Below are positions 188 through 45,728 of a stretch of 45,818 nt of DNA, in pieces. How positions within the stretch are numbered: position 1 is the stretch's first letter; each line of letters starts with the position of its first letter. Origin of the DNA: Kiritimatiellia bacterium. GTDB taxonomy: Bacteria; Verrucomicrobiota; Kiritimatiellia; JAQICX01. Position numbers and translations under genes: made by a program. Below the pieces are notes generated by a model. That model was not told the DNA's origin, searched no databases, and saw only the letters and a list, made by a program, of their open reading frames with translations. Where the stretch lies: positions 1 to 45,818 of the forward strand of contig JAQICX010000018.1 of the NCBI GenBank assembly GCA_027858345.1, read 5' to 3'.

Positions 188-377
188 TACAGACTCAGAT
201 GTTTATTATATAGAAGAACGTCCAACATCCAACTTTCAACATCCAATTTTGAATAAAGAAGAAAAAGAGCTGCCATTGCCAACAGTAATAAGTGTTACGG
301 ATAAGTTTCTCGCGGAATAATTCCTAACCTCGCAGATAAAAAACTATTCACTGTGTACCGTATACTGTGTACTTTTT

Positions 378-1151
378 TTACAGCTCGATTTGAAGTCCAT
401 CGTATGATGGGAAAATATTGTCAGGCAGGTTCTTTTCAAGATAATCATTGGAAAGCTCATGACAAATATGTGTAACATAAGAAGTTTTTGCATTAATCTT
501 CTGAAGCAACTCAACAGAGTTCTCAATTGTAAGATGTGTTGGATGAGGAGTATGACGCAGACCATCTAAAACCATAACATCCACATTTTTAACCCTATCA
601 AAAGTCTCCTGTGGCATTGAAGCACAGTCAGGAACATAAGCAAATTCTTTGCCATCCTCTGAAATGATATAACCTTGAGTATATTTGTTGCCATGCTCAA
701 CAACAATTGGTTCAATCATCGCAGAGCCAATCTGCATTGGAGAGTCAATTGGTTTGAACTCTATCAAAGGTCGATAAACACCAGAAACTTTCTGAGGCAT
801 AACATAGTCAAAGATTCGTTCAAGATCAACAAGTGTTTCGGGTGCAGCATAAGCATTTATGCATTGATGATTCTGAATGGTGTTATAACGTCTGATATCA
901 TCAAAACCAAAAATATGGTCAGCATGGGAATGGGTAAAAAAAACAGCATCAATATGAAGAATATTATAAGCTAAAACCTGTTCACGAAAATCAGGACTTG
1001 TATCAATAACAAAACACTGACCACCTGCTTCAACATACAAACCTGTTCTGGTTCTACGATCCTTAGGATTCTCAGATAAACATACATCACAGCGGCAACC
1101 AATCATTGGCACCCCTACCGATGTCCCTGTCCCCATAAATAAAACTTTCAC
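378..1151 (-). CDS. MBL-fold metal-dependent hydrolase (PhnP-like)
   Basis: 257 aa; MGTGTSVGVPMIGCRCDVC start and THSHADHIFGFDD metallo-beta-lactamase motif. Confidence 0.9.
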   Translation of the reverse strand: MKVLFMGTGTSVGVPMIGCRCDVCLSENPKDRRTRTGLYVEAGGQCFVIDTSPDFREQVLAYNILHIDAVFFTHSHADHIFGFDDIRRYNTIQNHQCINAYAAPETLVDLERIFDYVMPQKVSGVYRPLIEFKPIDSPMQIGSAMIEPIVVEHGNKYTQGYIISEDGKEFAYVPDCASMPQETFDRVKNVDVMVLDGLRHTPHPTHLTIENSVELLQKINAKTSYVTHICHELSNDYLEKNLPDNIFPSYDGLQIEL

Positions 1152-1537
1152 CTAAATCATCCCTCTATCTTTTTTTAATTCGATGTTAACTCTGAAATCC
1201 GCGTGGCAACGGCTCGTCTCCGTCGGTCAACGCCCGACGCTACAGCAGCTAACCGTGCAATCGCACCAGAAACCAAATTCCCGAGCCCATGGGACTCGGC
1301 TACAGACGTTGTTCTTTAAATCTACGTCAACTCTACAATCCACGCTGTAGCCGCATCGCATCGGTGCGGAATAAACACAACATGGGCGAACTTGCCGCCG
1401 TAGTCCCAACGGTGAAGGCTGAAGTCTGGTACAGCGAAGGTGGACGAGAAACGTCCTACTCACCACGTATCTCTTTGCACCGCTGGCTTCGCCAGCTCTT
1501 AATCTCAACCTTTATCTTAATCTCAATTTTTAATTGA

Positions 1538-2038
1538 TCAATGCACATCCTTATGCTCAGGGAAACTCAATCCCATGGCAATTTCAGGACAGGTAAGCGG
1601 AGACTCATAACGAGTACAATTTATGCAGCCAGTATAAATCTTGTGAATAAGCGATGCCTTGTCAACCTCAACAAAACCAAGCTTTTTAAAAAATCCTTTG
1701 GCAAATGTCAAAGCAATAATTTGTGTTGGTTTGAAGTCCTTAATATTATCAATTGCACTTGTAACCAATGCACTGCCAATACCCTTTTTCTGATACGACG
1801 AATGAACTGCAAGAGACTTTATTTCCAAAGTTGGCGCCTTGGGTTTGCCTATCTCCGGCAATATAGCCCATGAAACACAACCAAGAATTTGGCCTTTTTC
1901 TTCATACACAAAGAAGCGATCAATATTCTGAGAAATATTGGAAATTGATAATGATATTAACTTGTCAGTATGTTCCTGTATTAATTCAAAAATGCCATAG
2001 GCATCTGAAAACTTCGCTTTGCGAACATGGCTTTCCAT
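1538..2038 (-). CDS. GNAT N-acetyltransferase, possible single-domain N-acetylglutamate synthase
   Basis: 166 aa; GNAT core LAVHSSYQKKGIGSALV; C-terminal KIYTGCINCTRYESPLTCPEIAM resembles the Cys-rich tail of short ArgA-type enzymes. Confidence 0.8.
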   Translation of the reverse strand: MESHVRKAKFSDAYGIFELIQEHTDKLISLSISNISQNIDRFFVYEEKGQILGCVSWAILPEIGKPKAPTLEIKSLAVHSSYQKKGIGSALVTSAIDNIKDFKPTQIIALTFAKGFFKKLGFVEVDKASLIHKIYTGCINCTRYESPLTCPEIAMGLSFPEHKDVH

Positions 2039-2068
2039 AAATTTTCCTTGCTTGTTTATGGGTTATTT

Positions 2069-2352
2069 AGGGCTTCCTGTTCAATTTATAAAATGCACCT
2101 TATTAATGTTTTATACAAAAACACCAACGCTTATCTGCAAGTTTTTTAGCCATTCTAGTCCAAAAAGTGTGCAGACAACTTAATGTTATCATTCTATTCA
2201 TTTTATGAATTTGTAATGCAATATCACGCAACCTTTTACCTTGCAGCATGTTATCCCGCAAAGCGGGATCCCGGTCTGCGGGACCGCGGGCTAAAGGCGA
2301 AAAATGCTTTAAGGCAAAACTTTACGCAATCTTGCATTAAACAGTAACCCCT
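2069..2352. mobile_element. 284-bp MITE-like element, copy 1
   Basis: Imperfect TIRs AGGGCTTCCTGTTCAAT / ATTAAACAGTAACCCCT; flanking ATTT on both sides (2065-2068, 2353-2356); same length and internal blocks as 37863-38146. Confidence 0.65.
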
Positions 2353-2367
2353 ATTTAAAACAAAAAA

Positions 2368-2459
2368 TGGCGGAAGAAGAGGGATTCGAACCCCCGGTGG
2401 CTATGAAACCACACATGATTTCGAGTCATGCACATTCAACCGGACTCTGACATTCTTCC
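2368..2459 (-). tRNA. tRNA-Ser(CGA)
   Basis: Reverse complement GGAAGAA...TTCTTCCGCCA; anticodon stem-loop CATGA-CTCGAAA-TCATG, long variable arm, GGTTCGAATCC T-arm, encoded CCA. Confidence 0.95.
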
Positions 2460-2535
2460 TAAAACGCTGGCATTATATGAATTATTACAATAAATGTCCA
2501 ATAAAAACAATAGCTAAACATTTTTATAGCCTAAA

Positions 2536-6540: not shown

Positions 6541-7851
6541 ATGAAAAAAAACATCCTGCTTATAACAACGGATCAGCAAAGTGCGACAATGCTAAGTTGC
6601 TCTGGAAACAGAGATTTACAAACCCCTAACATGGATTCTTTGGCAAAGGATGGAGTTCGTTTTGAAAAGGCATACCCCGCCCAACCACTATGCATTCCTC
6701 AACGTTGTTCTTGGTATACAGGGCTCATGCCTCACCAACATGGCGTCACTTTCAACGTTAATGAAAGACCAATGACATCGGAATATATGATGGGGCAAAT
6801 CTTCAGAGATGCGGGCTATGCAACCGGATACTCGGGGAAATGGCATATTAACACACCACCAGAGAACAAGAAACGCCATGGATTTGAGTGGACGAACAAT
6901 ATCCGTTGCAATGGTGCTGATGCAGGAATCGTACCTGATTTCAAAACATTTCTTGACCAGACAGAAGAAAAACCTTTCCTTTTTTCTGCATCTTTCAACA
7001 ATCCCCACAACATATGTGAAGCATCTCGTGGATATCTGCTTCCTGATGGCAATCCAGGCATGATTGAAAATCTTGAACAATTACCACAACTGCCAGACAA
7101 CTTCTCTATTCCAGAAAATGAACCATCAATCATACGACAAGTTCAACAAAAGTACAAATATCCAACCCTTAAATGGGATGAGTTTCGCTGGCGTATGCAT
7201 CGTTGGTACTACTGCAGACTAACAGAGTTGGTGGATAGCCATATTGGAGAACTTCTGCAGGTCTTGAAAGAAAGTGGGCATTGGGATGACACTCTGATAG
7301 TGTTCTCAAGTGACCACGGGGACGGCAACGGTCATCACCATTGGACTTACAAACAGGTGCTGTACGATGAATCGGCAAGAGTACCATTTATAGTGACCCA
7401 ACCAAACAGCGGGCTAAACCTTGTGGATGAAAAACAACTGATTAATACAGGAATAGATATGATTCCAACACTTTGTGGACTTGCACAAATAGACTGTCCA
7501 GATCATCTTAAAGGACTTGATTGGTCAGACACATTGTCTGGCGACGAACTCCCAATGAAACGCGACCATGTCATTACAGAAACAGAGTTTGGAAAATTCG
7601 GACACCCATCAGGCTATCTTGGTCGTACGGTGCGGACTCAACATTACAAGTACATGGTTTATAGCGAGGGAGATAACCATGAGTTTTTTGTCGACATGGC
7701 AAATGATCCAGGTGAGACAATTAACCTAGTCGGTAACCCAAACCATCAAGATGAATTGGATCGCCATCGAATCTTGCTGCGGAACTACATTAAAGAGACA
7801 GATGACATATTCCCAATGGAAATGGTGCAGCTGGCTTCGCCAGCAGATTAA
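6541..7851 (+). CDS. Sulfatase, type I Cys
   Basis: 436 aa; PLCIPQRCSWYTGLMPHQHG (C-x-P-x-R), VFSSDHGDGNGHH metal site. Confidence 0.94.
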   Translation: MKKNILLITTDQQSATMLSCSGNRDLQTPNMDSLAKDGVRFEKAYPAQPLCIPQRCSWYTGLMPHQHGVTFNVNERPMTSEYMMGQIFRDAGYATGYSGKWHINTPPENKKRHGFEWTNNIRCNGADAGIVPDFKTFLDQTEEKPFLFSASFNNPHNICEASRGYLLPDGNPGMIENLEQLPQLPDNFSIPENEPSIIRQVQQKYKYPTLKWDEFRWRMHRWYYCRLTELVDSHIGELLQVLKESGHWDDTLIVFSSDHGDGNGHHHWTYKQVLYDESARVPFIVTQPNSGLNLVDEKQLINTGIDMIPTLCGLAQIDCPDHLKGLDWSDTLSGDELPMKRDHVITETEFGKFGHPSGYLGRTVRTQHYKYMVYSEGDNHEFFVDMANDPGETINLVGNPNHQDELDRHRILLRNYIKETDDIFPMEMVQLASPAD

Positions 7852-7967
7852 GATAAAGGTTAAGGTCAAGATTAAGAAGCTCGCTGCGTTCGCCAAAATA
7901 AGAGTTACGAGTTAAGAGATAATTTTATTCAAGCTTCGCACGTTGGTCTTAAGTGGATGACAAATTG

Positions 7968-8100
7968 GAAAAATATTTTCAGGCGGTCAACGACCGCCAC
8001 TACAGTATGAAATTTGCAGTTTAACGGTTAATTGCAAAATTAATGGCTGTAGCGTCGGTCGATGACCGACGAATATGCCGTCATGCTATGACTCTCAACC
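7968..8100 (-). repeat. Compact REP-like pair, inverted copy
   Basis: GGAAAAATATTTTCAGGCGGTCAACGACCGCC...GTAG-CGTCGGTCGATGACCGACG...GCCGTCATGCTATGACTCTCAACC; reverse complement of the 31008-31151 unit. Confidence 0.75.
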
Positions 8101-9287: not shown

Positions 9288-9591
9288 CATTCGCAGAGCG
9301 AATGCTTAGATTAAGGTAAAGATTAAGATGCTGAGAACGTCCAACATCGAACATTCAACATCCAATATTGAATGAACAAAAAGATCAGACGGATCGGTCC
9401 GTTCAGACAGATGTTTTTCCGAGCCGGGGCGACTCGGCTTCCGCCTTCGCCGTTCCGGACTGCGGCGCGACAGGTGCGAGGTGACCTCCTCCCGCAGTAC
9501 GGGACTATCCCGCAAGGCGTGGATAGCCGGGGAGGAGTTTTGGCGAACTAAGTAGTTTGTTTGTAAAGAACAATTTCATTAGGAAAACAAA

Positions 9592-12445: not shown

Positions 12446-12569
12446 TTCAATTAAAAAATAAGAATTAAGAATTAAGAATTGAAAAATAGGACAGATTGGA
12501 CTGATCCGACAGATGTTTTTTCTGAACTAACTAATAATCCAACTAACCAACAATCTAACGAACTAAAAC

Positions 12570-15025: not shown

Positions 15026-15233
15026 AACAAGAGAGAATATCGACCGTGTCCTGCATAGCTTAAAAAGCGAAGCGGGATGGTTCCAAACTCTTTTTTCTTC
15101 ATCCGTGTTTATCAGTGTTAATCTGTGGCTAAAAACTCTTCTTTTTTGCTGGAAAAATATAGGGCTTGAAAATTGGCTGGGCTTAATATATAATAACAAA
15201 ATAATATAAAATTTCAGAAAATAGGAGTTTAGG

Positions 15234-16198: not shown

Positions 16199-17236
16199 AT
16201 GAAAGTTTTTGCAATTGAAAGTTCATGCGATGAGACATCGGCAGCAATTGTTGATTCAACAGGCAAAGTATATGCCAATGTTGTTAATTCGCAAATAGAT
16301 ATACATCGACCATATGGTGGTGTTGTGCCTGAAATTGCATCGCGAGCGCATGTTAGGAACATTCAGCCTGTGATTATTAAGACTCTTGAAGCTGCAGATT
16401 CATCATTTGATGCTATTGATGCTATTGCGGTCACCTATGGTCCGGGTTTAGCATCGTCACTTCTCATTGGTCTATCGGCAGCAAAATCACTTGCAATGAG
16501 TTTAGACAAACCACTTATAGGGATAAATCATCTCAAGGCACATATTTACTCGGTATTTTTGGATAATGATTTAAGTTTTGAACAGATGTGTCCATTCTTA
16601 GCTCTTGTTGTATCAGGAGGACACACAAGCATTGTGGAAGTTGAAAGTCTAACGTCGTACAAACTTTTGGGTCAGACCATTGATGATGCAGCTGGAGAAG
16701 CTTTTGATAAGGCAGCAAACTTACTTGATTTGGGGTACCCCGGCGGACCAACAATAGATAAACTTGCAAGAAGTGGTAATAGTAAATATGTGAAATTTCC
16801 AAAATGCAGGCCATCTGAAACCAGCATGAATCTTAATGGGTTAGATCCTAAACTATGTTTTAGTTTCAGTGGTTTGAAGACAGCACTGATGTATTACTTG
16901 AAGAAGAATCCTCTTAATGGAACCGAGCAAGAGGTTTGTGATATTGCAGCAAGTTACCAGGAAGCAATTGTCAGTGCACTTGAAAGCAGATGCGAAATTG
17001 CTTTAAAAGCAAAGACGTATAAAGCCTTTGCAATTGGTGGCGGGGTCTCATTAAACAGTGCACTTAGAGAACAAATGACAAAAATGGCAGAACGCAACAG
17101 CAAGCCAATTCTACTTGCACAACCAAAATACTGTGGCGATAATGCTGCAATGATTGCCGGACTGGCAGCAGCTGGTGCAGGAATAGTTACCGATGAAAAC
17201 ACAACAATTGATGCCACACCATCACTGGCAATATAA
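16199..17236 (+). CDS. tsaD: tRNA N6-adenosine threonylcarbamoyltransferase
   Basis: FAIESSCDETSAAIVD, NHLKAHIYS, SGGHTSIVEV; ATG at 16199 preferred over the track's TTG at 16193. Confidence 0.96.
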   Translation: MKVFAIESSCDETSAAIVDSTGKVYANVVNSQIDIHRPYGGVVPEIASRAHVRNIQPVIIKTLEAADSSFDAIDAIAVTYGPGLASSLLIGLSAAKSLAMSLDKPLIGINHLKAHIYSVFLDNDLSFEQMCPFLALVVSGGHTSIVEVESLTSYKLLGQTIDDAAGEAFDKAANLLDLGYPGGPTIDKLARSGNSKYVKFPKCRPSETSMNLNGLDPKLCFSFSGLKTALMYYLKKNPLNGTEQEVCDIAASYQEAIVSALESRCEIALKAKTYKAFAIGGGVSLNSALREQMTKMAERNSKPILLAQPKYCGDNAAMIAGLAAAGAGIVTDENTTIDATPSLAI

Positions 17237-18619: not shown

Positions 18620-18701
18620 AAAGATAGTAAATGGTTAAGGGTAAATAGTAAATGGTCAATAAAAACACTTAAAAGATCAGACGGATCAGATGGATTTTTT
18701 T

Positions 18702-18843
18702 CCGCGCCGAGGCGACGCGGCTACAGTGTGAAGATTGCAGTTTAACCGTCGATTGTTGAATACCCCCTGTAGCCGAGTCCCATGGGCTCGGGAAGGTAAC
18801 GCAACGATCTTCGTTGCAGTTTTCCGCGCCGAGGCGACGCTAC
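18702..18843. repeat. REP-like hairpin cluster with three GTAG-footed hairpins
   Basis: CCGCGCCGAGGCGACGCGG-CTAC, GTAG-CCGAGTCCCATGGGCTCGG, GCAACGATCTTCGTTGC, CCGCGCCGAGGCGACG-CTAC. Confidence 0.75.
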
Positions 18844-18903
18844 AGTCGTGAAACGTGTAGATTGACAAGACGATGGAAGACCAACGTGGAACAACAAACA
18901 ATT

Positions 18904-18973
18904 ACTTGTCACGTAGTACTTAGCACTTATTACGTATTCCTGTGTACTTTACACTATGCACTGTGAACTTTTA
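18904..18973 (+). repeat. Ten-unit degenerate heptamer tract
   Basis: ACTTGTC ACGTAGT ACTTAGC ACTTATT ACGTATT CCTGTGT ACTTTAC ACTATGC ACTGTGA ACTTTTA, contiguous with no indel. Confidence 0.8.
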
Positions 18974-19766: not shown

Positions 19767-19811
19767 CGCACTAGAGTTGTTAAAACATTGACCTATGGTA
19801 GACAACCTTCT

Positions 19812-19935
19812 GGTTTGTTGCAACGAAGATCGTTGCTTTACCTTCCCGAGCCCACGGGACTCGGCTACAGGGTTTATTCAACAATCGACGGTTAAACTGC
19901 AATTTTCACACTGTAGCCGCGTCGCCCCGGCGCGG
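19812..19935. repeat. REP-like hairpin cluster
   Basis: GCAACGAAGATCGTTGC, CCGAGCCCACGGGACTCGG-CTAC, GTAG-CCGCGTCGCCCCGGCGCGG. Confidence 0.75.
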
Positions 19936-19986
19936 AAAACATCTGACAAATCTGACAGATCTTTCAAATGTTAATTGACAGTTGAT

Positions 19987-22900
19987 TTACTCTTTAACAT
20001 TCGATTTGAAATATCTCCAGACACCATTTGTCGATAATGTCATGGAACCATTTTTGACGTCGTTAGAAATTGTTATATATGGGCTAATAAGATTTGTAGT
20101 TCCATCCAGTGAATATGTTCTTAAGTTATCATCAAATGGTGACCAACTGACAACAACTCCGTTTGATGAGATTGTAACTAATGTTTGGAACAGAGACTCT
20201 TCATTTGTAGGAATAGTTAAGGCCACATATTCCTGCCAGGAGACTAGTCCATCGCCATCGGTATCCATATTTGCCAAGGCTTCATAATCAGTCTCACCAG
20301 GATAGAACTGTGCAAGCCATAATTGAGGCATACCATTGGTCACTATTATTTCATCAAAAGTTGCAACAATAGTTCCATCATCTAATATTAACCATTCAAA
20401 GTTTGTTTCAGTTCCCGCAACAAGATAACTATTGGTTGCGAAGGAAACAAGTTTATAGTGTTCGTCTGGTGTAGCGACAAACAGCATATTAGTTCCCTGT
20501 GGCACATCGAATGTTCCTTGAGGATCAATATCGCCTGGACCTACACTACTTGAAACAATTGTATACCATGGCAATTCATATGCCCCCATATCAACAGTTC
20601 CATGAGCAATACGAGTGTTACCAAGCAAATCAAGTGCTGAAGTCACATATGCATTTAGTCCGGCATCGATACATGGTGAGCTGGCTGATAATTCATAGCT
20701 CATATTTGTACTGAACAGAGGATCAATTGATATATTTCCTTGATTTGGAGGAACAACCCCTACCCCAATATTTGAATAGTAAGCATCTGAACCACCTACA
20801 AAATCAGTCCCTGTATTACCATATACAATGGAGTTAATAATATCAGCATTGAACACTCCGCCACAATTATCTAATCCATGCCAGTTCTCCGTAACAGTGC
20901 TATTAACAAATGTTGTTTTAGAAACAATATATGGATTTTGATAGAATCCTCCACCTTCATAATCTGCACCATTGCTATGCAACAGACAGTTTATAATAGT
21001 TGACGATTTACTATCGCCAAATATAGCCCCACCATAACTGGCCGTATTATTATATAATATGGACGATGATATATCAGAATCGGTAGCACCTCCACCAAAT
21101 GTTGAGGTGTTTGAGTAAATTTCACTGTTTGCTACAATTGAGTTTGCCACACCTCCACCATACTCTGCATCACAGAGTGCAACTTCCACATTTGTTTCAG
21201 CATTTGCATGACCTAAGCCGCCACCATAAAGAGCTGAACAATCTTCAATAACAGAATCTCTGACGGTTGCTCCAAAGATACCACCACCATAATATCCAGC
21301 ATAGCAGTAGATTATGTTACCCCCCTTAACAACGGCGGCATGACTCTGAGCCCAAATACCACCACCATTGTTTTCAATATAATAATTAGCTCCATCTTTT
21401 GTCTTACCATTTATCAACCAAAAGCCATCTAAAACAGTACCATCAATCATTAAAACTGGTCGATACATATCAGCACCGTTAATAATTGGGTTAGTAATGC
21501 CTCGCAAGACAATGTTTTTATTGATAACAACAACATTGGTCACAGAGGCTGTAGGATGAGAAAGAGGGCGACTTGCAGGCGATTTTGTATAAATTGCACT
21601 GGCAACTTGAACCAACGCCCACTCTTCTGCTTCATCAATTGCTTCCTGAATTGTCTTAGATGCATTCTCCCAGGTGTTAAATCCATTGGTTGCAAGACCG
21701 GATGGGCTAACATAAACATATTCTGAATAATATGCAAAAAGGTTTGTTACTGTAAACTCACCTGCTCTTGCCTGATAAACAACATCAAGCAGATTGGTTG
21801 AATTAATTTCATCAAAGACAAACTCAATAGTTTCCCCCATTGGCGATTTAACAATATCTTTTACAGCTAAACCACCAATTGTTGCAGACGTAACCTCTCC
21901 AACATCAAGACTGTTGGTTATCAACAGATGGTCACCATACTGATCTCTCCAACGGCTATAACCTGTAGTAATATCATCAGATGTGATTGCTGTACCTGTA
22001 ACATCAATACTGACATTTGTTTTGTTCAATGCTTCAAACGAGATAAACAGTTCAGACTCATAGTAATCCAAAACATTTGGATTAAAATCAATTGGTATCG
22101 CATATGTTTCACCAGGGTTAATCGTTATTGGCAAAAGGCTCTGATAACTGTTTTGTTTTTCAAAAGAATTTACATTGACATTGTATATCATGTTATACCA
22201 CAAATCTTTAATTCCTGATGCAACATCAAATTCCGCATCAATAAATCCTTTATACACAGTGTTTTCCATGTATAAAATGGAATAATCAGATTCAATTGAG
22301 AAGGTTGCAATAGGCATTGCAAATTCATCGGGGTTCAAAGTTGCAGAACACCCATAATAGTCAAAGTATGCATATGAATATGTAATAGGATTAGGCACGC
22401 TCTTAGGTTGTTCAAAAAACATTTCAGAGTCATCTAAGCCTACAATATTCACAGGCTCGTCAATCATGGCATCACCTTCCACCTCGCCACCTAGAGTTCT
22501 CCACAAATCACTTCCCCAATAAGCTGCACACCAAGAGCCAGCAATCAACGGTTTACCACTTTTTGTGAAATCAATCAAAGCATTTTCCAATGCCGTTACG
22601 CTATTATAATTAGGCAGAAAATAGTATTCAGAAGAGAAAATAACCATATCCCATTGCTGTGACACAAGAGCATTGTGAAACAGAGCAACTTCACCATAAC
22701 CATAGACTGTAACATTCGCCCCCATTGATGTAAGTACCTGATATGGATATGATAAGGTCTTAGGATTCAAATAATCATCGGCATATAACAGCACTGTCTT
22801 ATTTGTCATAGTGAAATTCATATCCACTGGAACAGATTTCTTATTCAACCTAATATTTTCAATTGTCACTGGATATTGAGAATCTATATTTTTAACATAA

Positions 22901-25900
22901 ATGCTTTCTGTACGAGATATATCAAGTTGTTGATTTCCAAACGGCATAACAGTTTCGTTGATTGTTGGCAGGCTTCCGCTGATTTCAACCTGTCCAATAC
23001 CTGTTGATACATCAAGCAATACAGGAACCTGTTGTTGAGTACTACTGTCAAAATTGGCAAACTCAATATAATTTGTATATTTGCCAAAAACAAAAGAATT
23101 TACAACATGATCAACCGTACCCGTCACAATTATACTTTCACCTGCAGGAATAGAACCAAATGCAGGTAATACAGCAATCCAGTTTTCACTTGCAGCCGCT
23201 GTCCAATGAAGTGTGCTTTCTGATATATTATGAACAGTAAACTCATATATATATTCATTAATATCAATATTCTCGCGCGTATGAATAACATATCCCTCTT
23301 CAGGAGTTACACTCAAGGCATCATATGGGTACTGAGCATATGCAAACATATCACTTTCAACAAAACCCGAAGGAGTTCCACTTCCTTTAGAGAGCCCGGC
23401 AATCGAATTACCAAGAGCATCAACATCGCCATATGTTAGACGAACATTTCCATTAAAGAAAAATTCAATTTGGAAACTGCTTCGATTTTCAGTATCAAAT
23501 TCAGGAACATTAATATAGCTGATCACAAAACGGTCAACAAACTCATTATAGAAAACTTCACCCTCCTGAGGAGATAAGTCTGTGAAAAGTGGTGCAACCG
23601 ATGGTAATGCAAAGTGATCTGCAACAGTTGGATTATATTCACTGCTACCCTCTGTAAAAGTAACTCGCCCATTACCATTAATAAATAGATTTGAGTAACT
23701 AGTACCATAGAAACTTATACCGCCAGGAGCATTAACCTGAATATTGGCAATTCCATCATCTGTCAATTCAACTGGTATACCTGAAGGTTCAACAAATAAC
23801 TGTTCAATATCGTTACAGTAGGCTACATAATAGTTTGTATTCCCTGCATCAGGAACAAACAACAATGATTTGTTTGACAAATTTTGTGCATCTCCCATGA
23901 AAACTTGCGTAAAATAATCTGGTATATTGCGAACCATAAAATTCTGACTATTACCAACAGAAGATAGTGTATTAGATATAACCAGCGTTTCCTGATAAAT
24001 TGAGTTCAAATCTATGACACCAGATTTGACTGTTGCATCAAGAACCGTTCCTTCGTATGCGGCAAGAGTACCCGACATAGAACTAAAATCAATGTATTCA
24101 TTAGCTTGAGTTCTATAAGCCTCCCAGTTCAAAGCCGTTGAAGCACGATTTGTAAGTATCAGCTCATATTTTTCCGGAGCATAGTTCAAAGCATTTGCCT
24201 TCGTAAACAAAAAAGTCGACTGATCAGGAAGAATCTTTAGAGGGTCTTCATATGACAAAGCTATATCAAATATCTCACTTATTGAATTCTCTTGAGAATA
24301 CAAAGCAATAGTTCCTGAGTAGACATCCCCTACTTGAAGTCCACCAACTCCGTAATCAGCAGTAAAGGCAATATTAGTACTTATCCCCGATTCCAATGTG
24401 CCGGAATTTCCTCCAACAGCAGATAGCCAGTTGTTAGAACTTGAAACATCTAACTGCCAATGTATTGCTTCGTCGCCAGTATTAAGCAGCTCAAACCAGA
24501 GTTCTGAAGGAGTAACCTCACCTTGCTCAACACCAACAAAGGTCAAATCATCTGGCGGGGTAATCTGCATATTATAATTTAACTCTTGATAAGATGAAAA
24601 GTCTGATTCCTGAAAGTTTGCAGGAATTCCATTGCCTTCAGATAGACCTGTTATAAATATTCTTGTTATATCAATTTTTTCATATGTTATTCTGACAGTT
24701 CCATCGAAGAAACATTCAATCTGATAACTGCTTGTTGTTGTCTCATTATACCCCGGTACATTTACAAACGTAACAATTGCTCTGTCAGAAAGTTCTTCAA
24801 TGTAGACCTTGCCATTTTGCGGAGATAAATCAGCAAACATTGCAGAAATTGCAGGTAAGGCAAAATAATTTGCAAGTGATATTAGATATTGAGTTGATCC
24901 CTGTCCTAAAGTAATTCTACCATTTGAAGATATGTATAGAGAAGAGTAAGCACTACTAAAAAACGGGAATGTATTGCCATTTGACAGCACAAAATTATAA
25001 ATGGTATCGTCCCCCATTGATATTTGGGTTGCATTATCCAGATTTATATAAAATTCACTTACAGAGTTTATATAGGTATCGTAACTTGTTCCATTTTCAA
25101 TAAATACAATTGATTGATAACTTAGGTCATTCACTCCACCAACAAATTCTTCGGTGTAAAAATCATGAGCTCGAACATCAAGATTCAAAACCCTATTTAT
25201 AGTTGTTCCCGAATACAAGTTGGTGAAAGCAAGAATATCACTATAGATTCCAGGGGAGTACATATTGCTATAGACAGAAACAACGACATCCTGACTTGTA
25301 TGTCCGGCAAGAACTCCACTAGCTGGCTGAACATCAAAAACATTTGTACCTAAATAACTATTCCAAGCAATACTCACATCGCCTGTATTACCTAATGTAT
25401 ATGTATTATTTTCAGGATAAATGTTTGACTGCTCATTGAACAACAAAAAGTTTGCCGGCAAAGATGGTGTAACTGTTAATTCACCACTCTCTTTTTCATG
25501 AAGATTTGCATTGTATGTGACTAAAGCGAAGTCCTGGTCAAGTGGATATTCATTTACAGGAACCCCATCACCAGCAATATTTACAGAAATGACCTTAACT
25601 TCAACAGTACCGCTAATACCAGCTGGCAAAAAAACACTTTCCACATTGTTTATTCTGTCTCCAGAACCACCTTGTACCGAAGTGTCATGTGAAAATACAT
25701 TTCCATAATATGGGACATTGTTGACCAGAACAATAAGGTCAAGATCATTGACATAGGCTGCACCGGTTGTTGACCCGAGGGCATCTGTCCATGCAAGTGT
25801 AACCCTAAAAACTTTTTGTGTGTCAGTAATCTCGCCAACAAAACTAAATTCCTGCCCTGAATCTGTAAACAAATTATTTGTGTTCTGATCGACAAATGAT

Positions 25901-27888
25901 CTGTCGGTATCATCAAGCATAGTCTCAAGACTGGTTGTGCCCATACCTTGGCTGTTTGACGGCAAATCGTCGTCGGCATATTCGCCAGTCAAGTAGCGTG
26001 CTGAATTCATGATCCAGGCCTTATTCATTGCAGGACTCGGAGGAAGATTACCATTATTAATAAACCACTGTCTAAGCAATGCAGAAGCAGCAGCTACTGC
26101 CGGGCATGAATGACTGGTTCCTGAAGATTCTGCATATTTCGTTTGCCCAATTGGATTATATTTATCACTTACCCCATCACCAACATATCCAGCATATTGA
26201 GATGCGGCTCCGTGAATATGTGTTGCAGGTGCAACAATATCAGGTTTAATACGACCATCCTTTGTTGGACCTCTACTGGAAAACGATATAATATCATTCA
26301 CATTGTTTGCTCCCGATGGTCCAACATTGCTGCCATCAGTATAGTTTAGGTCAGCATCATAAGTTTTTGATCCACCAACAGTAAAAACATTTTTTGCAGT
26401 TCCAGGACTGCCCATTGAAGAAGCATTTGGTCCAACATTACCTGCGGAGAAAACAAAAACCATCTCCTGATTTCCAGGAAGAGATGTTGAAGCATCACGA
26501 GTCAAATAGTCAAAAGTTTGTGCATCGACAGTGTACAGTGGTGTATTAGCACCCCAACTGTCCGAATGAATTCTTGCACCATTGGAATATTGACGATTAA
26601 CCATCTGACTATAATTAGGATTCCCCCATGCCCCGCTGTCTGCAAAAATTTTAGTACTTCCAAGCATTGCAAATGGAACAATTCCTAAACCGTAATGGTA
26701 ATCTTGAGGGTCAACATTAGTTGGCGTTCCTGTTCCATTATTAAAACCACCAATAATGCTCAAATTGAGATTACCATGCCCCGCTGCACCTGCCGGATTA
26801 GAAATGCCACTAGTTCCCTGACCAATCTCTGCATAAGCAACTCTACTGCTTGCCGCTGGATTATTTGAAACACAAAACTCACTATTTCCGGGCGTAACAG
26901 CATTACCATTATCAAAACCATCATCTGTTACATCAACAATGAACCCCGAATCAATAAACTGCTGCTGTGTAAATCCCTTAGATAAAAACCACTGCAGATA
27001 TGAATCTGTTCTAGGCAACGGCAATGTGCCATCAGGCAAAAACTTATCTGCCATTATAAGAGCCTGTCTTTCACCATGAAGTTTCATATCATGATGCAAA
27101 TTGATTGATATAACATCTGGCTGCTTAGACAATTCAACAACCTGCGCACCTGAAAGTTCTACCACACAGTTAACAACCTTAAGCTTATCAATCTTATAGT
27201 TTTTAAATTTTCCCGAATATTTTTCAAGAAGTGCAAATGTATCGATATTCTTTTGCTCATCCAAAAACAGCTGAACATCGTAAGTGCTAATATTCTCGGG
27301 GGCTGCAACAGCAAGCAATTGTTTTGCATCAGGTTGAATTCTCATATTATTACTGTATTCCCCTATCCAATGAACATATGGCAAGTTTAGGTTTTCCAAA
27401 GAATTAAACTGATCTTGAGTCCCAGAAACTAAATACGCATTATTAGGAATATAACAAACAAATTTGAGGTCTGTTCTCTCGGTGACATCATTTATCCATT
27501 CAGTTTTTACAGGTCCAATAAACTGCATAAGCATCATACCTGAAGAACTTGCAGACTGAGTTGTTGATGCAACTGAAAAAGTTTTAAGAGTTTCATCTTT
27601 ATCTGTTGTTTTTATCATACCACTGTTAAGATTAATCTCACGCATATATGATACATCTTCTAAGTCTTGCAAAGCAATAGGAGCAGAAGAAGAATTAACA
27701 GTAAAAGCAGAGGATTTGCTTTCAGGCATTGAAACAATAGTGAATGCTGCATACTCGGCAACAATAGAAGCTCCTGAATTCAACAAATCTTTTTTTTGGG
27801 AAGAGTCGTTATCAACTCGATACAGGATTTCAGAATGTAGGCTAAGTGCAAAAGAAAATAGTAATATATATTTCAGTAAAAATTTCAT
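19987..27888 (-). CDS. Giant secreted S8 (subtilisin-like) protease with duplicated beta-rich modules and a right-handed beta-helix region
   Basis: 2633 aa; signal peptide MKFLLKYILLFSFALSLHS; triad candidates DVTDDGFD, AGHGNLN, GTSHSCP; beta-helix with repeated YGGG/FGGG motifs; C-terminal DTDGDGLVSWQEY. Confidence 0.9.
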   Translation of the reverse strand: MKFLLKYILLFSFALSLHSEILYRVDNDSSQKKDLLNSGASIVAEYAAFTIVSMPESKSSAFTVNSSSAPIALQDLEDVSYMREINLNSGMIKTTDKDETLKTFSVASTTQSASSSGMMLMQFIGPVKTEWINDVTERTDLKFVCYIPNNAYLVSGTQDQFNSLENLNLPYVHWIGEYSNNMRIQPDAKQLLAVAAPENISTYDVQLFLDEQKNIDTFALLEKYSGKFKNYKIDKLKVVNCVVELSGAQVVELSKQPDVISINLHHDMKLHGERQALIMADKFLPDGTLPLPRTDSYLQWFLSKGFTQQQFIDSGFIVDVTDDGFDNGNAVTPGNSEFCVSNNPAASSRVAYAEIGQGTSGISNPAGAAGHGNLNLSIIGGFNNGTGTPTNVDPQDYHYGLGIVPFAMLGSTKIFADSGAWGNPNYSQMVNRQYSNGARIHSDSWGANTPLYTVDAQTFDYLTRDASTSLPGNQEMVFVFSAGNVGPNASSMGSPGTAKNVFTVGGSKTYDADLNYTDGSNVGPSGANNVNDIISFSSRGPTKDGRIKPDIVAPATHIHGAASQYAGYVGDGVSDKYNPIGQTKYAESSGTSHSCPAVAAASALLRQWFINNGNLPPSPAMNKAWIMNSARYLTGEYADDDLPSNSQGMGTTSLETMLDDTDRSFVDQNTNNLFTDSGQEFSFVGEITDTQKVFRVTLAWTDALGSTTGAAYVNDLDLIVLVNNVPYYGNVFSHDTSVQGGSGDRINNVESVFLPAGISGTVEVKVISVNIAGDGVPVNEYPLDQDFALVTYNANLHEKESGELTVTPSLPANFLLFNEQSNIYPENNTYTLGNTGDVSIAWNSYLGTNVFDVQPASGVLAGHTSQDVVVSVYSNMYSPGIYSDILAFTNLYSGTTINRVLNLDVRAHDFYTEEFVGGVNDLSYQSIVFIENGTSYDTYINSVSEFYINLDNATQISMGDDTIYNFVLSNGNTFPFFSSAYSSLYISSNGRITLGQGSTQYLISLANYFALPAISAMFADLSPQNGKVYIEELSDRAIVTFVNVPGYNETTTSSYQIECFFDGTVRITYEKIDITRIFITGLSEGNGIPANFQESDFSSYQELNYNMQITPPDDLTFVGVEQGEVTPSELWFELLNTGDEAIHWQLDVSSSNNWLSAVGGNSGTLESGISTNIAFTADYGVGGLQVGDVYSGTIALYSQENSISEIFDIALSYEDPLKILPDQSTFLFTKANALNYAPEKYELILTNRASTALNWEAYRTQANEYIDFSSMSGTLAAYEGTVLDATVKSGVIDLNSIYQETLVISNTLSSVGNSQNFMVRNIPDYFTQVFMGDAQNLSNKSLLFVPDAGNTNYYVAYCNDIEQLFVEPSGIPVELTDDGIANIQVNAPGGISFYGTSYSNLFINGNGRVTFTEGSSEYNPTVADHFALPSVAPLFTDLSPQEGEVFYNEFVDRFVISYINVPEFDTENRSSFQIEFFFNGNVRLTYGDVDALGNSIAGLSKGSGTPSGFVESDMFAYAQYPYDALSVTPEEGYVIHTRENIDINEYIYEFTVHNISESTLHWTAAASENWIAVLPAFGSIPAGESIIVTGTVDHVVNSFVFGKYTNYIEFANFDSSTQQQVPVLLDVSTGIGQVEISGSLPTINETVMPFGNQQLDISRTESIYVKNIDSQYPVTIENIRLNKKSVPVDMNFTMTNKTVLLYADDYLNPKTLSYPYQVLTSMGANVTVYGYGEVALFHNALVSQQWDMVIFSSEYYFLPNYNSVTALENALIDFTKSGKPLIAGSWCAAYWGSDLWRTLGGEVEGDAMIDEPVNIVGLDDSEMFFEQPKSVPNPITYSYAYFDYYGCSATLNPDEFAMPIATFSIESDYSILYMENTVYKGFIDAEFDVASGIKDLWYNMIYNVNVNSFEKQNSYQSLLPITINPGETYAIPIDFNPNVLDYYESELFISFEALNKTNVSIDVTGTAITSDDITTGYSRWRDQYGDHLLITNSLDVGEVTSATIGGLAVKDIVKSPMGETIEFVFDEINSTNLLDVVYQARAGEFTVTNLFAYYSEYVYVSPSGLATNGFNTWENASKTIQEAIDEAEEWALVQVASAIYTKSPASRPLSHPTASVTNVVVINKNIVLRGITNPIINGADMYRPVLMIDGTVLDGFWLINGKTKDGANYYIENNGGGIWAQSHAAVVKGGNIIYCYAGYYGGGIFGATVRDSVIEDCSALYGGGLGHANAETNVEVALCDAEYGGGVANSIVANSEIYSNTSTFGGGATDSDISSSILYNNTASYGGAIFGDSKSSTIINCLLHSNGADYEGGGFYQNPYIVSKTTFVNSTVTENWHGLDNCGGVFNADIINSIVYGNTGTDFVGGSDAYYSNIGVGVVPPNQGNISIDPLFSTNMSYELSASSPCIDAGLNAYVTSALDLLGNTRIAHGTVDMGAYELPWYTIVSSSVGPGDIDPQGTFDVPQGTNMLFVATPDEHYKLVSFATNSYLVAGTETNFEWLILDDGTIVATFDEIIVTNGMPQLWLAQFYPGETDYEALANMDTDGDGLVSWQEYVALTIPTNEESLFQTLVTISSNGVVVSWSPFDDNLRTYSLDGTTNLISPYITISNDVKNGSMTLSTNGVWRYFKSNVKE

Positions 27889-28140
27889 AAAATCCCTTAT
27901 ATAATGTATTAAATTTAACGTATGTGAATTGTAGTCTATTATATAGCAAAAAACAACATTTTTTTGAGTCCACTTTTATTTACCCTCAATTTTTCGGTTG
28001 AGTCATTGCATGACAGCATATCCATCGGTCAACGACCGACGCTACAGGTGTGGAGTCTGCCGATCAGCCTTAGTCCGCTAAAGCTCCTCCCCGGCTAGCT
28101 TGCTAGTCCCGCAAAGCGGGAGGAGGTGGCGATTCCGCTA

Positions 28141-32965: not shown

Positions 32966-32966
32966 G

Positions 32967-36038: not shown

Positions 36039-36272
36039 AATTATTTTTCCCTTATAAGTTTAGATTGTGAGATAGTTGGTTCATTGTATAGTTGGCTGGA
36101 ACATCGAGGAAGCAAAGCTGGTTTCGCACAATCCTAGGCGACGTTGTCGCCACATCCGTCCCGTAAGTCTCATCAGTCTCATTTTCTTCGTTTATTCCAC
36201 CTTGTCCCAAACTGGGAGAGACACTCGAGCCTGCGAGAGAGCTTAAACCACTCAAAAGAAAACAATAGGATG

Positions 36273-36328
36273 AAGCATTTACGAACTTACGAACTTGTGC
36301 ATTTACGAACTTACGAACTTACGATCTT
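36273..36328 (+). repeat. Seven-unit octamer tract
   Basis: AAGCATTT ACGAACTT ACGAACTT GTGCATTT ACGAACTT ACGAACTT ACGATCTT. Confidence 0.85.
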
Positions 36329-36333
36329 AAAAT

Positions 36334-37746
36334 TTACTGTTGTTTCCTGCGCTCTTCAATTGGTATATATTCCCTATCAAGATCGCCAGTATATATTGCC
36401 CTAGGTCTAAAGATTCTATTTGTTGCAAGATATTCAACAACTCTGGCAGTCCAACCACTACATCTGGCTACAGCAAATGTAGGTGTAAACATTTCAGATG
36501 GTATGCCGAGTGCCTTATAAACAATACCTGAATAAAAGTCAACATTTGGATATATTCCCTTTGATTTTCCTAATGTACTAACAACTTCATTTTCAAGATT
36601 TTTTGCAATCTGCAATGTCTTCTTTGCATCAGGACCTGCATAATCTGTCATAAAGTGAGCCAGTGGACCTAAAATCTTCGCACGAGGATCATATGTTTTA
36701 TATACACGATGACCAAATCCCATGATTTTCTCTTTCTTGCGGGTAGCATTCTTATACCACTCGGCAACAGCTTCAGGACTTTCAATTCCATCAAGCATAT
36801 TTAAAACCTGTTCGTTTGCACCACCGTGTAATGGTCCCTTTAAGGCTGAGATACCTGCACCAATGGATGCATATAAATCTGAAAGTGTTGACGCAACAAC
36901 GATAGATGCAAATGTACTAGCGTTCATACCATGATCAGCATGTAGAATAAGAGAAACATCCATGATCTTTTCTTCAACGGCTGTTGGTCTCTTACCTGTC
37001 ATCATGTAAAGATAGTTAGCTGCAAAACTCAAATTCTTGTCTGGGTCAAGCGGCATAAGCCCTTGTCTTATCCTGCTGATAGCAGCGGCACATGTGGCAA
37101 GTCCGGAAATCAAATGACAGCAAGCTGAAAAAGTCTCTTTTTCCTTATCTTCATCGACCTTTCTCTTTTTCTTTTTAGCGTCAAACTCGTACACAGCTTT
37201 CTGCTCACCAAATGGAAGAGTCTCCATCCCCATAGAATCTTCATCTGTTCCAATAAAATCATCTGAATTGTTTTTCTGAGCCTTTTTTTGATCCATAATA
37301 CTGTCATCAAAATACTGCTTCATAACAGTTGTGGCCAAGTTCAAAGATGCCATAGGACTCATTTTTTCAACATCAAAACCAATTAGACTTCTTATGACTT
37401 TTGGCATAAAAAGATTTTCTGTCAATTTTCTTGAAAAATTAGTCAACTGCTTTGGTGTTGGCAATTTGCCTTTTAACAGCAAGTAAGCAACTTGCTCATA
37501 ATTTGCATAAGCACATAAATCATATATGCGATACCCACGATAGTATAACGCACCCTGAGTACCATTTACATATCCAATTTCAGTCTCACAAGCAATAGCC
37601 CCTTCCAGACCTGGACCAACTGTACATTCTGCCGGCCAATCAACTCTGCCAACAAAGGCTGGAGAAATAGCTCCATGACGATCCTTCTGAGCCTGGATCG
37701 AAGCCCCTATTATCAAATCTTGAATTTGCTTTAATTCTTTATCCAT
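36334..37746 (-). CDS. Citrate synthase with internal charged insertion
   Basis: 470 aa; YRGYRIYDL, HADHGMNASTFA, GPLHGGANEQVLNML, GFGHRVYKTYDPRAKI. Confidence 0.94.
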   Translation of the reverse strand: MDKELKQIQDLIIGASIQAQKDRHGAISPAFVGRVDWPAECTVGPGLEGAIACETEIGYVNGTQGALYYRGYRIYDLCAYANYEQVAYLLLKGKLPTPKQLTNFSRKLTENLFMPKVIRSLIGFDVEKMSPMASLNLATTVMKQYFDDSIMDQKKAQKNNSDDFIGTDEDSMGMETLPFGEQKAVYEFDAKKKKRKVDEDKEKETFSACCHLISGLATCAAAISRIRQGLMPLDPDKNLSFAANYLYMMTGKRPTAVEEKIMDVSLILHADHGMNASTFASIVVASTLSDLYASIGAGISALKGPLHGGANEQVLNMLDGIESPEAVAEWYKNATRKKEKIMGFGHRVYKTYDPRAKILGPLAHFMTDYAGPDAKKTLQIAKNLENEVVSTLGKSKGIYPNVDFYSGIVYKALGIPSEMFTPTFAVARCSGWTARVVEYLATNRIFRPRAIYTGDLDREYIPIEERRKQQ

Positions 37747-38146: not shown

Positions 38147-38677
38147 AAACTATTCTTTTCAACTGTTTCAAAATATTCTTCCACACACTTTGTGCTTTCA
38201 TAAATCCATTATTTAATCAAGCGAGCACTATATCAACAAACAAAATATATTATCTAGCCATTAAGTATATAAAACTAGACACCTTAATGTCAAGTTCTAA
38301 AATATATTCACAACCGTTTTCCTTGATTTTTAGGTTGATTATAGAATATGACAACGAAGACGTTGTCAACCTGTCGCGCCGTAGACAAGGATTGCGAAGG
38401 AGGATCCCAGCATGCATACCAACTTTGTCTTGGAAAAATGGGCTTGTCCTGCGTAGCCCAAAAGGCGAAGCATTGGGAGCGACGATGTCCTCATCGTCAT
38501 AATAAATTATTTTGTGGATTTATCACTCACTGTGTTCGCCAAGATAAGAGTTAGAGAAGAGTTGGCTTCCGCCGACGAGAAGACTTGAAAAACAATTGAA
38601 AGCTAGCTTTGCTTGCAAAGCACATAAGTCCCATTGGTCTCATGCGTCCCATCGAACAGATAAGTCAGAATTGTAAA

Positions 38678-39715
38678 CTATAAAATCAACATACAATCAC
38701 CATAGCTAAAGAATCGATACCTCTCTTCAACAGCCTTCTTATAGGCCTCAAGAGTAAATTCTTTGCCGGCAAATGCAGCAACCATCATGATTAGTGTCGA
38801 CTTTGGAAGATGAAAATTTGTAATCATTGCATCAACAGCCTTAAATTCGTATCCAGGATATATAAAGATTGAGCTACGACCTTCATCCGGCTGAATTTTT
38901 CCGTACTTTTGGGCGACAGTTTCGAGGGTTCTTACAGAAGTGCTGCCAACGGCAATAACTCTTGCGTCAGCATTCCTAGCCTTGCAGATCGCATCTGATG
39001 CATTTTTTGTAATCTCATAACGCTCTTCGTGCATCACATGATCTTCAACTTTATCAACCTTAACAGGGGCAAAAGTGCCAGGTCCTACATGAAGAGTTAA
39101 CTCTGTCTTAAATACACCAAGGTCAAAAAGTTTTTGAAAATGTTCATCTGTGAAATGTAGCCCGGCGGTTGGAGCTGCCACGGCTCCTTTTTCTTTTGCA
39201 AAAACAGTCTGATAACGCTGCTTATCCATCTCAACTCTTGTGTCATCCATCTCTCTTTTAATATATGGAGGAACAGGAGGAACACCTTTTTCTTCTAAAA
39301 TGTCAAACAAATCACCAGCATAGCTAAGTTTAATAATCACTCGTCCCTCTGTGCGTTTTTCGACAATCTCACCTTTAATAAGCCCATCAGCAAGAATAAC
39401 TTTAATTCCTGGTCTAGCCTTACCTCTATAATAACTCTCCCACAAATTCTCACTGACTGCTTCAATAAGCAATAGCTCAACTTTGCCACCTGTATCTTCT
39501 CGCTCACCAAAAATTCTTGCAGGCACAACCTTAGTATTGTTAACAACAAGTAAATCATTGGGAACTAGATATTTAGACAAATCAGAGAATTTGCGATGTT
39601 CAATTTTTCCTGATGAACGATGTAGAACCATCATTCTTGCATCTTCTCTTTTTTCAGGCGGACACTGTGCTATCAACTCTTCCGGCAAATAATAATTAAA
39701 ATTTTTTGTTCTCAT
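38678..39715 (-). CDS. queA: S-adenosylmethionine:tRNA ribosyltransferase-isomerase
   Basis: 345 aa; YYLPEELIAQCPPEKREDARMMVLHR, APTAGLHFT, LHVGPGTFAPV. Confidence 0.96.
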   Translation of the reverse strand: MRTKNFNYYLPEELIAQCPPEKREDARMMVLHRSSGKIEHRKFSDLSKYLVPNDLLVVNNTKVVPARIFGEREDTGGKVELLLIEAVSENLWESYYRGKARPGIKVILADGLIKGEIVEKRTEGRVIIKLSYAGDLFDILEEKGVPPVPPYIKREMDDTRVEMDKQRYQTVFAKEKGAVAAPTAGLHFTDEHFQKLFDLGVFKTELTLHVGPGTFAPVKVDKVEDHVMHEERYEITKNASDAICKARNADARVIAVGSTSVRTLETVAQKYGKIQPDEGRSSIFIYPGYEFKAVDAMITNFHLPKSTLIMMVAAFAGKEFTLEAYKKAVEERYRFFSYGDCMLIL

Positions 39716-42004: not shown

Positions 42005-42007
42005 AAT

Positions 42008-42970: not shown

Positions 42971-43127
42971 TATTCAATTCTTTCTAATCATAAATCACTC
43001 AAGTATATCAACATTGACATACAAAATCCCTAATGGAAAAATCTCATCATTGTGGAAAGACTATAAATCTTCCGAACACAAAAGGGAACGCACATTACCA
43101 AACTAGACAGCATTTTTCAAGCATTAT

Positions 43128-43727: not shown

Positions 43728-44538
43728 CCATATATTTCACAATTGACGCTTCAACTTCATCATAACACTCAAACAACCAGAATGCTTCTCTATCTAAAAA
43801 GGTTGTTCCCCCTGCACCATAACACTTTAATTTGCCTAGCTCATACTTGTATGTATAGTGAATGTGCCCATGAAGAAAAAACATATCTCTATCGCTAACA
43901 ACATCCTCAAGCTCTTTTTGATTCACAATGCCATGAGTATATGAATCAATTGAGCCATCAGGCTTTCTCAAACCATAATGTGAGCATACAAAAACTTTAT
44001 TATCACCCTTCAACAGTTCATCAATCAACTTCTTTAATGAATCAATCTGGCTTGTTGAAACTTTTCCGGAAGAAACTGGTGTAATAGGATTTGGCTTAAC
44101 ACTGTTTAGTATAATAACATAAACGTTATCAGAAAATTTAACAACATCACATAAGTCATTTTTTATAAAATTATCTGAGTTTGTCATGTCCCCAAAAACT
44201 GAGTTATAGATGCTCTTGTTTATATAATAGTCATGATTACCAGGTATTAATGCCGTATATTTAACTCTCTTAAAGAGTCTCTCAATAAATGCTTTAGCCC
44301 GCTCGAACTCACCACGACTTCCAAGACATGTCAAGTCTCCTGAAAAAACTACTCCATCAACATTATTGGCAACCACAAACTCTTCAATCATGTTTAGCTT
44401 ATCAATTGAATCAACAAACTTACACTTTCTTCGAAAAATATAATTGAGCCATCCAACAAATCTTTTTGGATACAAAAGATCAACAAAAGTATACCCCTTT
44501 GTGTATAAATGCAAATCGCTGATATGAATAAATTTCAT
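43705..44538 (-). CDS. Metallophosphoesterase
   Basis: 277 aa; HISDLHLY, FSGDLTCLGS, IPGNHDYY, LHGHIHYTY. Confidence 0.93.
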   Translation of the reverse strand: MKFIHISDLHLYTKGYTFVDLLYPKRFVGWLNYIFRRKCKFVDSIDKLNMIEEFVVANNVDGVVFSGDLTCLGSRGEFERAKAFIERLFKRVKYTALIPGNHDYYINKSIYNSVFGDMTNSDNFIKNDLCDVVKFSDNVYVIILNSVKPNPITPVSSGKVSTSQIDSLKKLIDELLKGDNKVFVCSHYGLRKPDGSIDSYTHGIVNQKELEDVVSDRDMFFLHGHIHYTYKYELGKLKCYGAGGTTFLDREAFWLFECYDEVEASIVKYMDGEYVCG

Positions 44539-45413
44539 TATATGTCCCCCACCTGAGCTCGAACAATTCTATCCCTACCGGTCAAGTCTTTAATAACCTC
44601 AACATTACAATAGCCAAAACCATTAAGCAATTCAATCACCCTCTGACCTTGTGCAATACCAATCTCAAGGAAAAGTACCCCTTGCGGCTTCAAAGCTGCA
44701 AAAGCTTCTTCAACAATAATTTCAATAGTATCCATTCCGTCAGAACCAGCCTCAAGTGCCGTTTTAGGTTCAAAATTCTTTACATGAGCAGGAAGATTTT
44801 CATATTCATCAGTGGTGACATATGGAAGATTTGCAACAACAAGATCTAAAGACATGGGCTCAATAACATCTGAAAGCTCAGCATTGGTCAGCAGAACAAT
44901 ATTTTCAAGTTCATGAAGCGCAACATTTTCTTTTGCCAGACTAAGAGCATCATCGCTGATGTCAACACCAAGAAAACGCCCTTTTTTGTTCAGCTCAAGC
45001 ACAAGAGTAATGATTATGCATCCTGAACCAGTACCAATATCCACAACAGCAGGTAGCTCTTCACTCTTAAGAATTTCCTCTTTGAGTATTGTTTCAACAA
45101 GAAGTTCTGTTTCCGGTCTTGGAATCAAAGCACGCTTATCAGTCTTAAACTTTCGACCATAAAAATCCCAGTGCCCAACAATATACTGAACAGGTTCGCC
45201 ATCAGCAAGACGCTTAATTCCACGACGCATAGCTTCCAAAAACTTCTCATTCAGAACCTGATCGTGCTTCAACTGCAAGTCAAGCCTCTTACATTTCAAC
45301 AGACAAGACATAAGATATTCACAAGCAATCTCCGCCTCAAAAACATTATGTTTCAAACAATACTGCTTTGAACTACTAAGAATATTTTCTACCGTTTTCA
45401 TAAATTTAGTCAT
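44538..45413 (-). CDS. prmC: Release factor glutamine N5-methyltransferase
   Basis: 291 aa; VQYIVGHWDFYGRKFKTDKRALIPRPETELLVE, VVDIGTGSGCI, VVANLPYV. Confidence 0.93.
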   Translation of the reverse strand: MTKFMKTVENILSSSKQYCLKHNVFEAEIACEYLMSCLLKCKRLDLQLKHDQVLNEKFLEAMRRGIKRLADGEPVQYIVGHWDFYGRKFKTDKRALIPRPETELLVETILKEEILKSEELPAVVDIGTGSGCIIITLVLELNKKGRFLGVDISDDALSLAKENVALHELENIVLLTNAELSDVIEPMSLDLVVANLPYVTTDEYENLPAHVKNFEPKTALEAGSDGMDTIEIIVEEAFAALKPQGVLFLEIGIAQGQRVIELLNGFGYCNVEVIKDLTGRDRIVRAQVGDI

Positions 45414-45522
45414 TAGCTCTCAGTTATTAGTTTTTAGTCAAGCAAAGCTAGGTTCCCAAAATCCTAGGCGACGCAGTCGCCACATTCGTCCCATCTTCTT
45501 CATTGTAAAATTGCAGACTCAC

Positions 45523-45580
45523 CCAAACTCCTCCCGCTTTTAGGGGAGGTCACCTCGCGTGCGAGGTGGGAGGGGTATTC
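45523..45580 (-). repeat. Dispersed palindromic repeat, copy 2
   Basis: Reverse complement of 127-187, essentially identical. Confidence 0.85.
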
Positions 45581-45728
45581 CTTCAAAATTCGATATTGAA
45601 CTTTCGACGTTCTCCCCTCCCTGGGAACGCCGAGCATTACTCGGCTCTTCTGTAGCCGAACAAAACATGAGCGTAGTAAAAGCTCCTCCCAGGCTAATCC
45701 CGCAAGGCGAGATCTCGCTCTGCCGGAG

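Follow-up and report, generated by a model that had tools for sequence, protein, structure and literature searches.

Fixed-period intergenic tracts of constant cores and variable linkers in a Kiritimatiellia genome, with words shared by other phyla

The window analysed here is the whole 45,818 nt of contig JAQICX010000018.1 from a Kiritimatiellia bacterium (assembly GCA_027858345.1), with 7.9 kb of intergenic spacers and 37.9 kb of coding DNA, gene calls being long open reading frames (ORFs) only. Its spacers contain short arrays, here called tracts, in which degenerate units follow each other at a fixed period. Example tracts of periods 6, 7, 8, 9 and 10 had been named in an earlier note on this DNA, and all of these were located in the window.

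A period-7 tract of AACRTCS units (family F7a, which is present in other phyla) lies at 217-266(+), and one of ACTGTNN/ACAGTNN units (F7e) at 343-377(-) abuts the stop codon of the gene at 378-1151(-). Period-6 GRTTAA tracts (F6) are present at 1497-1535(-), directly 3′ of the stop of a GNAT gene (1538-2038(-)) and followed by a GCTGGCG/GCCAGC stem-loop, and at 7845-7877(+), where the tract contains the stop codon of a sulfatase gene (7851). A period-7 TAAGAGT tract is found at 7899-7922(+), and downstream of a phosphorylase gene a second F7a tract (9336-9373(+)) comes after an F6 tract. Three families share the spacer ahead of recD2: a period-7 AATTAAG tract (F7b; 12449-12487(+)) begins 3 bp past the stop of an ATP synthase alpha/beta-family gene, a period-9 GATCNGACN tract (F9b) lies at 12481-12514(+), and a period-8 GTTAGNCN tract (F8a; 12525-12566(-)) ends a few bp ahead of the recD2 start codon. 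Period 10 is represented by three CACRGATNNA units (F10) at 15096-15127(-). Directly after an mgtE-like gene there is a period-7 TTTACTA tract (F7c; 18622-18660(-)), then F9b again (18657-18695(+)) and, upstream of recO, a fused period-7 tract in which CACTTNN units give way to ACTGTNN (F7d and F7e; 18911-18973(+)). A period-9 ATCTGACAN tract of F9b type (19937-19972(+)) adjoins the stop of the gene for a 2633-aa S8 protease, an ORF (19987-27888) that joins an S8 peptidase domain to HYDIN/CFAP65-like Ig domains. Finally, two period-9 ATGRGACNN tracts (F9a) lie at 36148-36182(-) and 38617-38652(-), the latter 25 bp past the stop of a queuosine gene (38678-39715(-)) and followed by the stem-loop GCTTTGCAAGCAAAGC, and a period-8 AAGTKCGN tract (F8b; 36271-36333(-)) lies 3′ of the stop codon of the citrate synthase gene (36334-37746(-)).

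Tracts were detected as ungapped self-matches at each lag, with a segment score of at least 14 in the window spacers, and dinucleotide shuffles served as the null model (100 for the window spacers). Nineteen lag-periodic segments were detected in the window spacers, where shuffling leaves 1.12 on average and none of the 100 shuffles came up to 19, and the coding DNA, at nearly five times the length, holds 7. Shuffled spacers are clearly not equal in period strength, and the fixed period that the earlier note had claimed is therefore real. At genome scale, a sample of 590 kb (the window and stretches L004-L042, 129 kb of it intergenic), which is 15 % of the 4.03 Mb genome (G000), was read. Observed against shuffled tract counts were 45/4.2 for period 6, 83/3.2 for period 7, 26/2.4 for period 8, 47/3.0 for period 9, and 21/2.4 for period 10, with an excess at multiples of these periods as well and little at periods 5 (8/4.6), 11 (6/2.2), and 13 (6/2.2). 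Approximately 14 word families sort the tracts of the window genome. Perfect triplets are rare in the 590 kb (four heptamers, no 9-mer), set against more than 200 degenerate tracts.

For analysis of the unit columns, tracts were first picked out by lag alone and then phased to a family, assignment needing a 72 % match to the core. Mismatches between adjacent units are column-specific in all 12 families tested (chi-square against uniform, p from 3.2e-4 to 3.2e-28), although the core-match requirement leans towards a pattern of core and linker and the dispersed copies are not independent. In F9a (ATGGGACNN) adjacent units differ at rates of 0.00-0.16 in most core columns, 0.53 in column 4, and 0.56-0.69 in the linker; in F10 (CACGGATNNA) the rates are 0.00 in six core columns, 0.38 in column 4, and 0.45-0.67 in the last three. 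In other genomes the linker of both families is again the most variable part, and column 4 of F10 varies too. The unit is therefore a constant core of 4-7 nt with 1-3 variable linker positions, and the earlier description of letters that drift while the spacing is kept is wrong as a general statement, because variation is confined to particular columns.

Short-period DNA with a constrained and a free portion is also the product of the DRT10 type of reverse transcriptase, which by telomerase-like, templated A-B-A′ repeat addition makes exact repeats, of 9 nt in one instance, whose A portion is constrained and whose B portion is free, as described in part of PMC12632851; such arrays would later have entered the genome. 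The same part of that paper has the products single-stranded and does not report them as integrated. No RVT_1 match was found in the tract-rich genomes G074, G076, G042, and G071, and the window genome has one partial match. Synthesis by reverse transcription is therefore effectively refuted as a general source, barring assembly gaps, and is highly improbable as the origin of the arrays.

The tracts of the window genome gather at gene 3′ ends. A facing stop is no more than 30 bp away from 54 of them (25.8 expected) and a facing start from 21 (18.5 expected), and tract density is 2.1 times higher between convergent than between divergent genes (2.79 against 1.30 per kb; p 0.002). In same-strand spacers, some families have mainly one orientation relative to the upstream gene (F6, 20:2; F7a, 7:0; F7b, 8:2). 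Stem-loops beside tracts are enriched for F6 (20 of 45, against 14 % at random), with no overall enrichment across the families of the window genome (p 0.09). Separate from the tracts, GC-rich hairpin modules (CTGTAGCCGCGTCGCCCCGGCGCGG, GTCGGTCGACGACCGACGCTACAG) are dispersed over many window spacers (2560-2850, 7972-8090, 18690-18860, 19800-19940, and 28009-28060), with a 43-bp tandem duplication of one (96 % matches; 2618-2711) near tRNA-Ser(CGA) (2368-2459). Rfam covariance models matched only tRNA in the window and no known RNA family for the tracts.

The same words recur far outside the class. In a scan of genome contigs with the pattern ATGGGACNNATGGGACNNATGGGACNNAT, that is, three consecutive ATGGGACNN units, matches were found in at least 120 stretches, where approximately 0.007 would be expected by chance, an estimate from 23 fixed bases, 257 Gb, and two strands. 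Among the matches listed are Planctomycetota, Verrucomicrobiota, Lentisphaerae, Acidobacteria, Hydrogenedentota, Armatimonadota, Bacteroidota, Chlorobi, Proteobacteria, and others; a few (L071, L092, L113, L136, and L148) have the appearance of coincidental matches in coding sequence. Reversed word patterns were used as controls for the family counts, and those for F9a were near zero. F10 was counted 72 times in the window genome, 41 times in Armatimonadota, and 25 times in Verrucomicrobia (reversed control 0), and F7a (AACRTYS) 128 times in the window genome and 549, 131, 34, and 30 times in other genomes (reversed control zero or nearly so). For CACTTNN the reversed pattern is not a neutral control, because this reverse, the period-7 TTCACNN, is itself an abundant family in G047 (up to 507 matches), G046, G048, G074, and G076. 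No description of this word set was found in the literature, by the words themselves or in general terms, within a scope that left out most subscription journals.

Ordinary copying slippage alone does not explain how unrelated phyla come to have the same core words, patchily and often directly behind gene ends. Plain replication slippage with neutral decay, in which chance duplications grow, substitutions erode their identity, and rarer indels leave the period, would suit the occurrence of many families together in tract-rich genomes, the whole-unit changes between orthologues described below, and the periods themselves, long simple sequence repeats being known to favour units of 5-11 nt, in particular heptamers (Mrazek 2007, as relayed in PMC4679880). 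It also predicts mismatches in all columns and words private to each genome, neither of which is observed, and it does not predict the orientation and stop-codon bias; as the whole explanation it is unlikely.

Within the class, the tracts are patchy. F9a has 73 matches in the window genome and 0-4 in each of 115 relatives, and the tract excess is 1.70 per kb intergenic against 0.37 in 20 class relatives. An excess of 1.7-3.6 per kb recurs in scattered genomes (G042, G046, G047, G048, G074, and G076), the other genomes having been picked because they bear F9a. Such patchiness fits dispersed small mobile repeats, like miniature inverted-repeat transposable elements or repetitive extragenic palindromic (REP) sequences, with period and words inherited from a few source elements and spread within and between genomes by a trans-acting transposase. 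Order among the F10 unit variants is common to Armatimonadota and Verrucomicrobia, which again fits: G stands at column 4 of the last unit in 36 of 41 and 24 of 25 tracts, respectively, and of the first unit in 12 of 41 and 10 of 25. F10 tracts are also found inverted some 200-220 bp apart in a dispersed element with outer CAACCGAAAAATCAAGG-type inverted motifs, two copies of which (L009:12426-12689 and 16720-16983) are 97 % identical over 264 bp; F7c has near-identical copies with common flanks, and a composite of F6, spacer, and F7a recurs. Mobile spread contributes in places, as in the F10 element. As a general account it is possible but on balance unlikely, because repeated flanks are no commoner around tracts (240 of 430) than around randomly chosen intergenic points (312 of 591), Y1 transposases (Y1_Tnp) occur in 99 of the 116 class genomes without tracking the tracts, and no autonomous element was found. 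For over half of the randomly chosen points, a second copy of the flank exists within the 590 kb. Nor are viral sequences rich in tracts, with 31 stretches in IMG/VR carrying the F9a triple and 40 the F10 triple; phage carriage looks minor and is unlikely to be a general source. One IMG/VR contig of 13 kb (L313) has three F9a and two F10 triples, and could derive from a host genome or from a tract-rich provirus.

In Planctomycetota and Acidobacteria, inverted ATGGGACNN arms form long hairpins in which the 7-bp cores pair and the 2-nt linkers commonly do not. F9a hairpins in other phyla have fold z-scores of -7 to -14. Of 28 intergenic F9a hairpins, 12 are between convergent and two between divergent genes, against a background of 118:131 (p 0.006), and they lie a median of 16 bp away from a facing stop, as against 99 bp from a facing start. 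Orthologous spacers were compared in four Schlesneria species (L195-L198), where a hairpin is kept behind the same gene (fold z -7 to -12) with its paired cores conserved, while linkers and unit numbers vary; more distant orthologues of the gene (78-80 % protein identity) are without it. The tracts had been described as almost indel-free. This holds inside tracts, in part through the mode of detection; between the Schlesneria orthologues the hairpins do change length, mostly by whole units and with one 1-base insertion. The suggestion of selection, for instance at transcript 3′ ends, gains support from the clustering at stops, the single orientation of some families, and these conserved cores at gene ends. 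Other Schlesneria hairpins (L234, L238, and L241-L244) have a conserved asymmetric loop and lie upstream of a common promoter-like TTGACA/TATATT region. Many are near contig ends, and they suggest a large paralogous gene family. Hypervariable linkers, considered for this conserved-loop element, were dropped as a candidate, because its 5′-arm linkers are conserved (TT, GA, and CT in most) and its flanks partly paralogous.

Constant cores with free linkers, common words, and sense orientation after stops would also be expected if, in line with the protein or RNA binding suggested in the earlier note, each family were a set of binding sites at regular spacing, the phyla sharing the reader and not the DNA; S1, Csp, or Csr has been proposed as the binder of TAACTGA repeats (MacGregor 2015, PMC4679880). 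This is quite improbable here, as five periods and approximately 14 unrelated words would call for many readers within a single genome and the F9a cores are explained by hairpin pairing with no reader at all. To our knowledge, no reader of the tract words is known.

The tracts may well be, and we propose this tentatively, a bloom-prone variant of the intergenic short tandem repeats, such as the short tandemly repeated repetitive (STRR) sequences and TAACTGA, that grows by whole units and is kept at transcript ends through constraint on the core. Arrays would change length in whole units, probably by slippage or unequal recombination, so that the period persists; constraint would hold the core and leave the linkers free; and retention would be mainly at the 3′ end of transcription units. 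Where it sits beside a stop, the F9a hairpin would most likely terminate or shield transcripts that arrive from either or both directions. An indel-averse, error-prone generator, as had been suggested, is unnecessary, because whole-unit slippage and substitutions keep the period and the changes sit in linker columns, not everywhere.

Several observations weigh against this proposal. Core constraint is accounted for by pairing in F9a but not for the single tracts of the window genome, where most tracts are single, inverted pairs are few, and no ATGGGAC...GTCCCAT hairpin of the F9a layout was found, and a copied founder array with built-in linker variety could mimic the column pattern. Hairpin arms agree in their linkers at 0.60, against 0.46 when partners are shuffled; the arms are therefore not wholly independent, the linkers being only loosely matched. 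A U-tract is mostly missing after F9a hairpins (TTTT in four of 39 tails, at least four T in 8 nt in nine of 39), and they are therefore not canonical intrinsic terminators but terminator-like at most. For F6, F7b, and F8a, part of the stop proximity is a mechanical consequence of the TAA or TAG in the unit; the orientation bias is not.

A broader proposition, that in many phyla one machinery reads or writes a small vocabulary of core words, set at fixed spacing near the 3′ ends of transcripts and spreading or re-evolving as multi-family blooms in single lineages, is doubtful. If true, its signature would be cross-phylum word identity, column-specific variation, and the F10 unit order. In many uncultured bacteria, the DNA between genes tends to be passed over as unalignable. 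If words recur across phyla at transcript ends, they offer a handle on what shapes bacterial 3′ ends beyond model species and on repeat families that arise repeatedly in the same form. Tract-bearing spacers also give rise to false matches between phyla and to assembly breaks.

Among known repeats, the STRR heptamers of heterocystous cyanobacteria (units CCCCAGT and CCCCAAT) are intergenic tandem arrays with copies genome-wide. They are less degenerate than the tracts described here and have one period in one clade, and in the 590 kb of the window genome perfect heptamer triplets number four and CCCCAGT and CCCCAAT doublets none. Heptamer direct repeats of TAACTGA are known from Beggiatoaceae, Cyanobacteria, and Bacteroidetes, with 7-nt length steps and no known mechanism (MacGregor 2015, PMC4679880). 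Both they and the tracts are short-period intergenic direct repeats, phylogenetically scattered and changing length stepwise. However, TAACTGA is one exact word that in BOGUAY mostly lies immediately ahead of start codons (PMC4679880), a placement not favoured in the window genome, whereas the tracts comprise approximately 14 words and five periods with degenerate linkers, lie mainly past stops, and occur in many more phyla; the 590 kb contain no TAACTGA doublet. Prokaryotic long simple sequence repeats with units of 5-11 nt, of which heptamers are the most abundant (Mrazek 2007, as relayed in PMC4679880), are alike in unit lengths, heptamer abundance, and scattered distribution, but in that account are near-perfect, where the tracts are degenerate. 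Intrinsic (Rho-independent) terminators resemble F9a hairpins in having a stable hairpin shortly past the stop and differ in the U-tract. REP/REPIN sequences, dispersed extragenic palindromes proposed to act in termination or mRNA stability (e.g. PMC3733652), are single palindromes of 20-40 bp tagged GTAG or CGTC and go with a RAYT (Y1) transposase, whereas the arms of F9a hairpins consist of 9-bp units with mismatched linkers.

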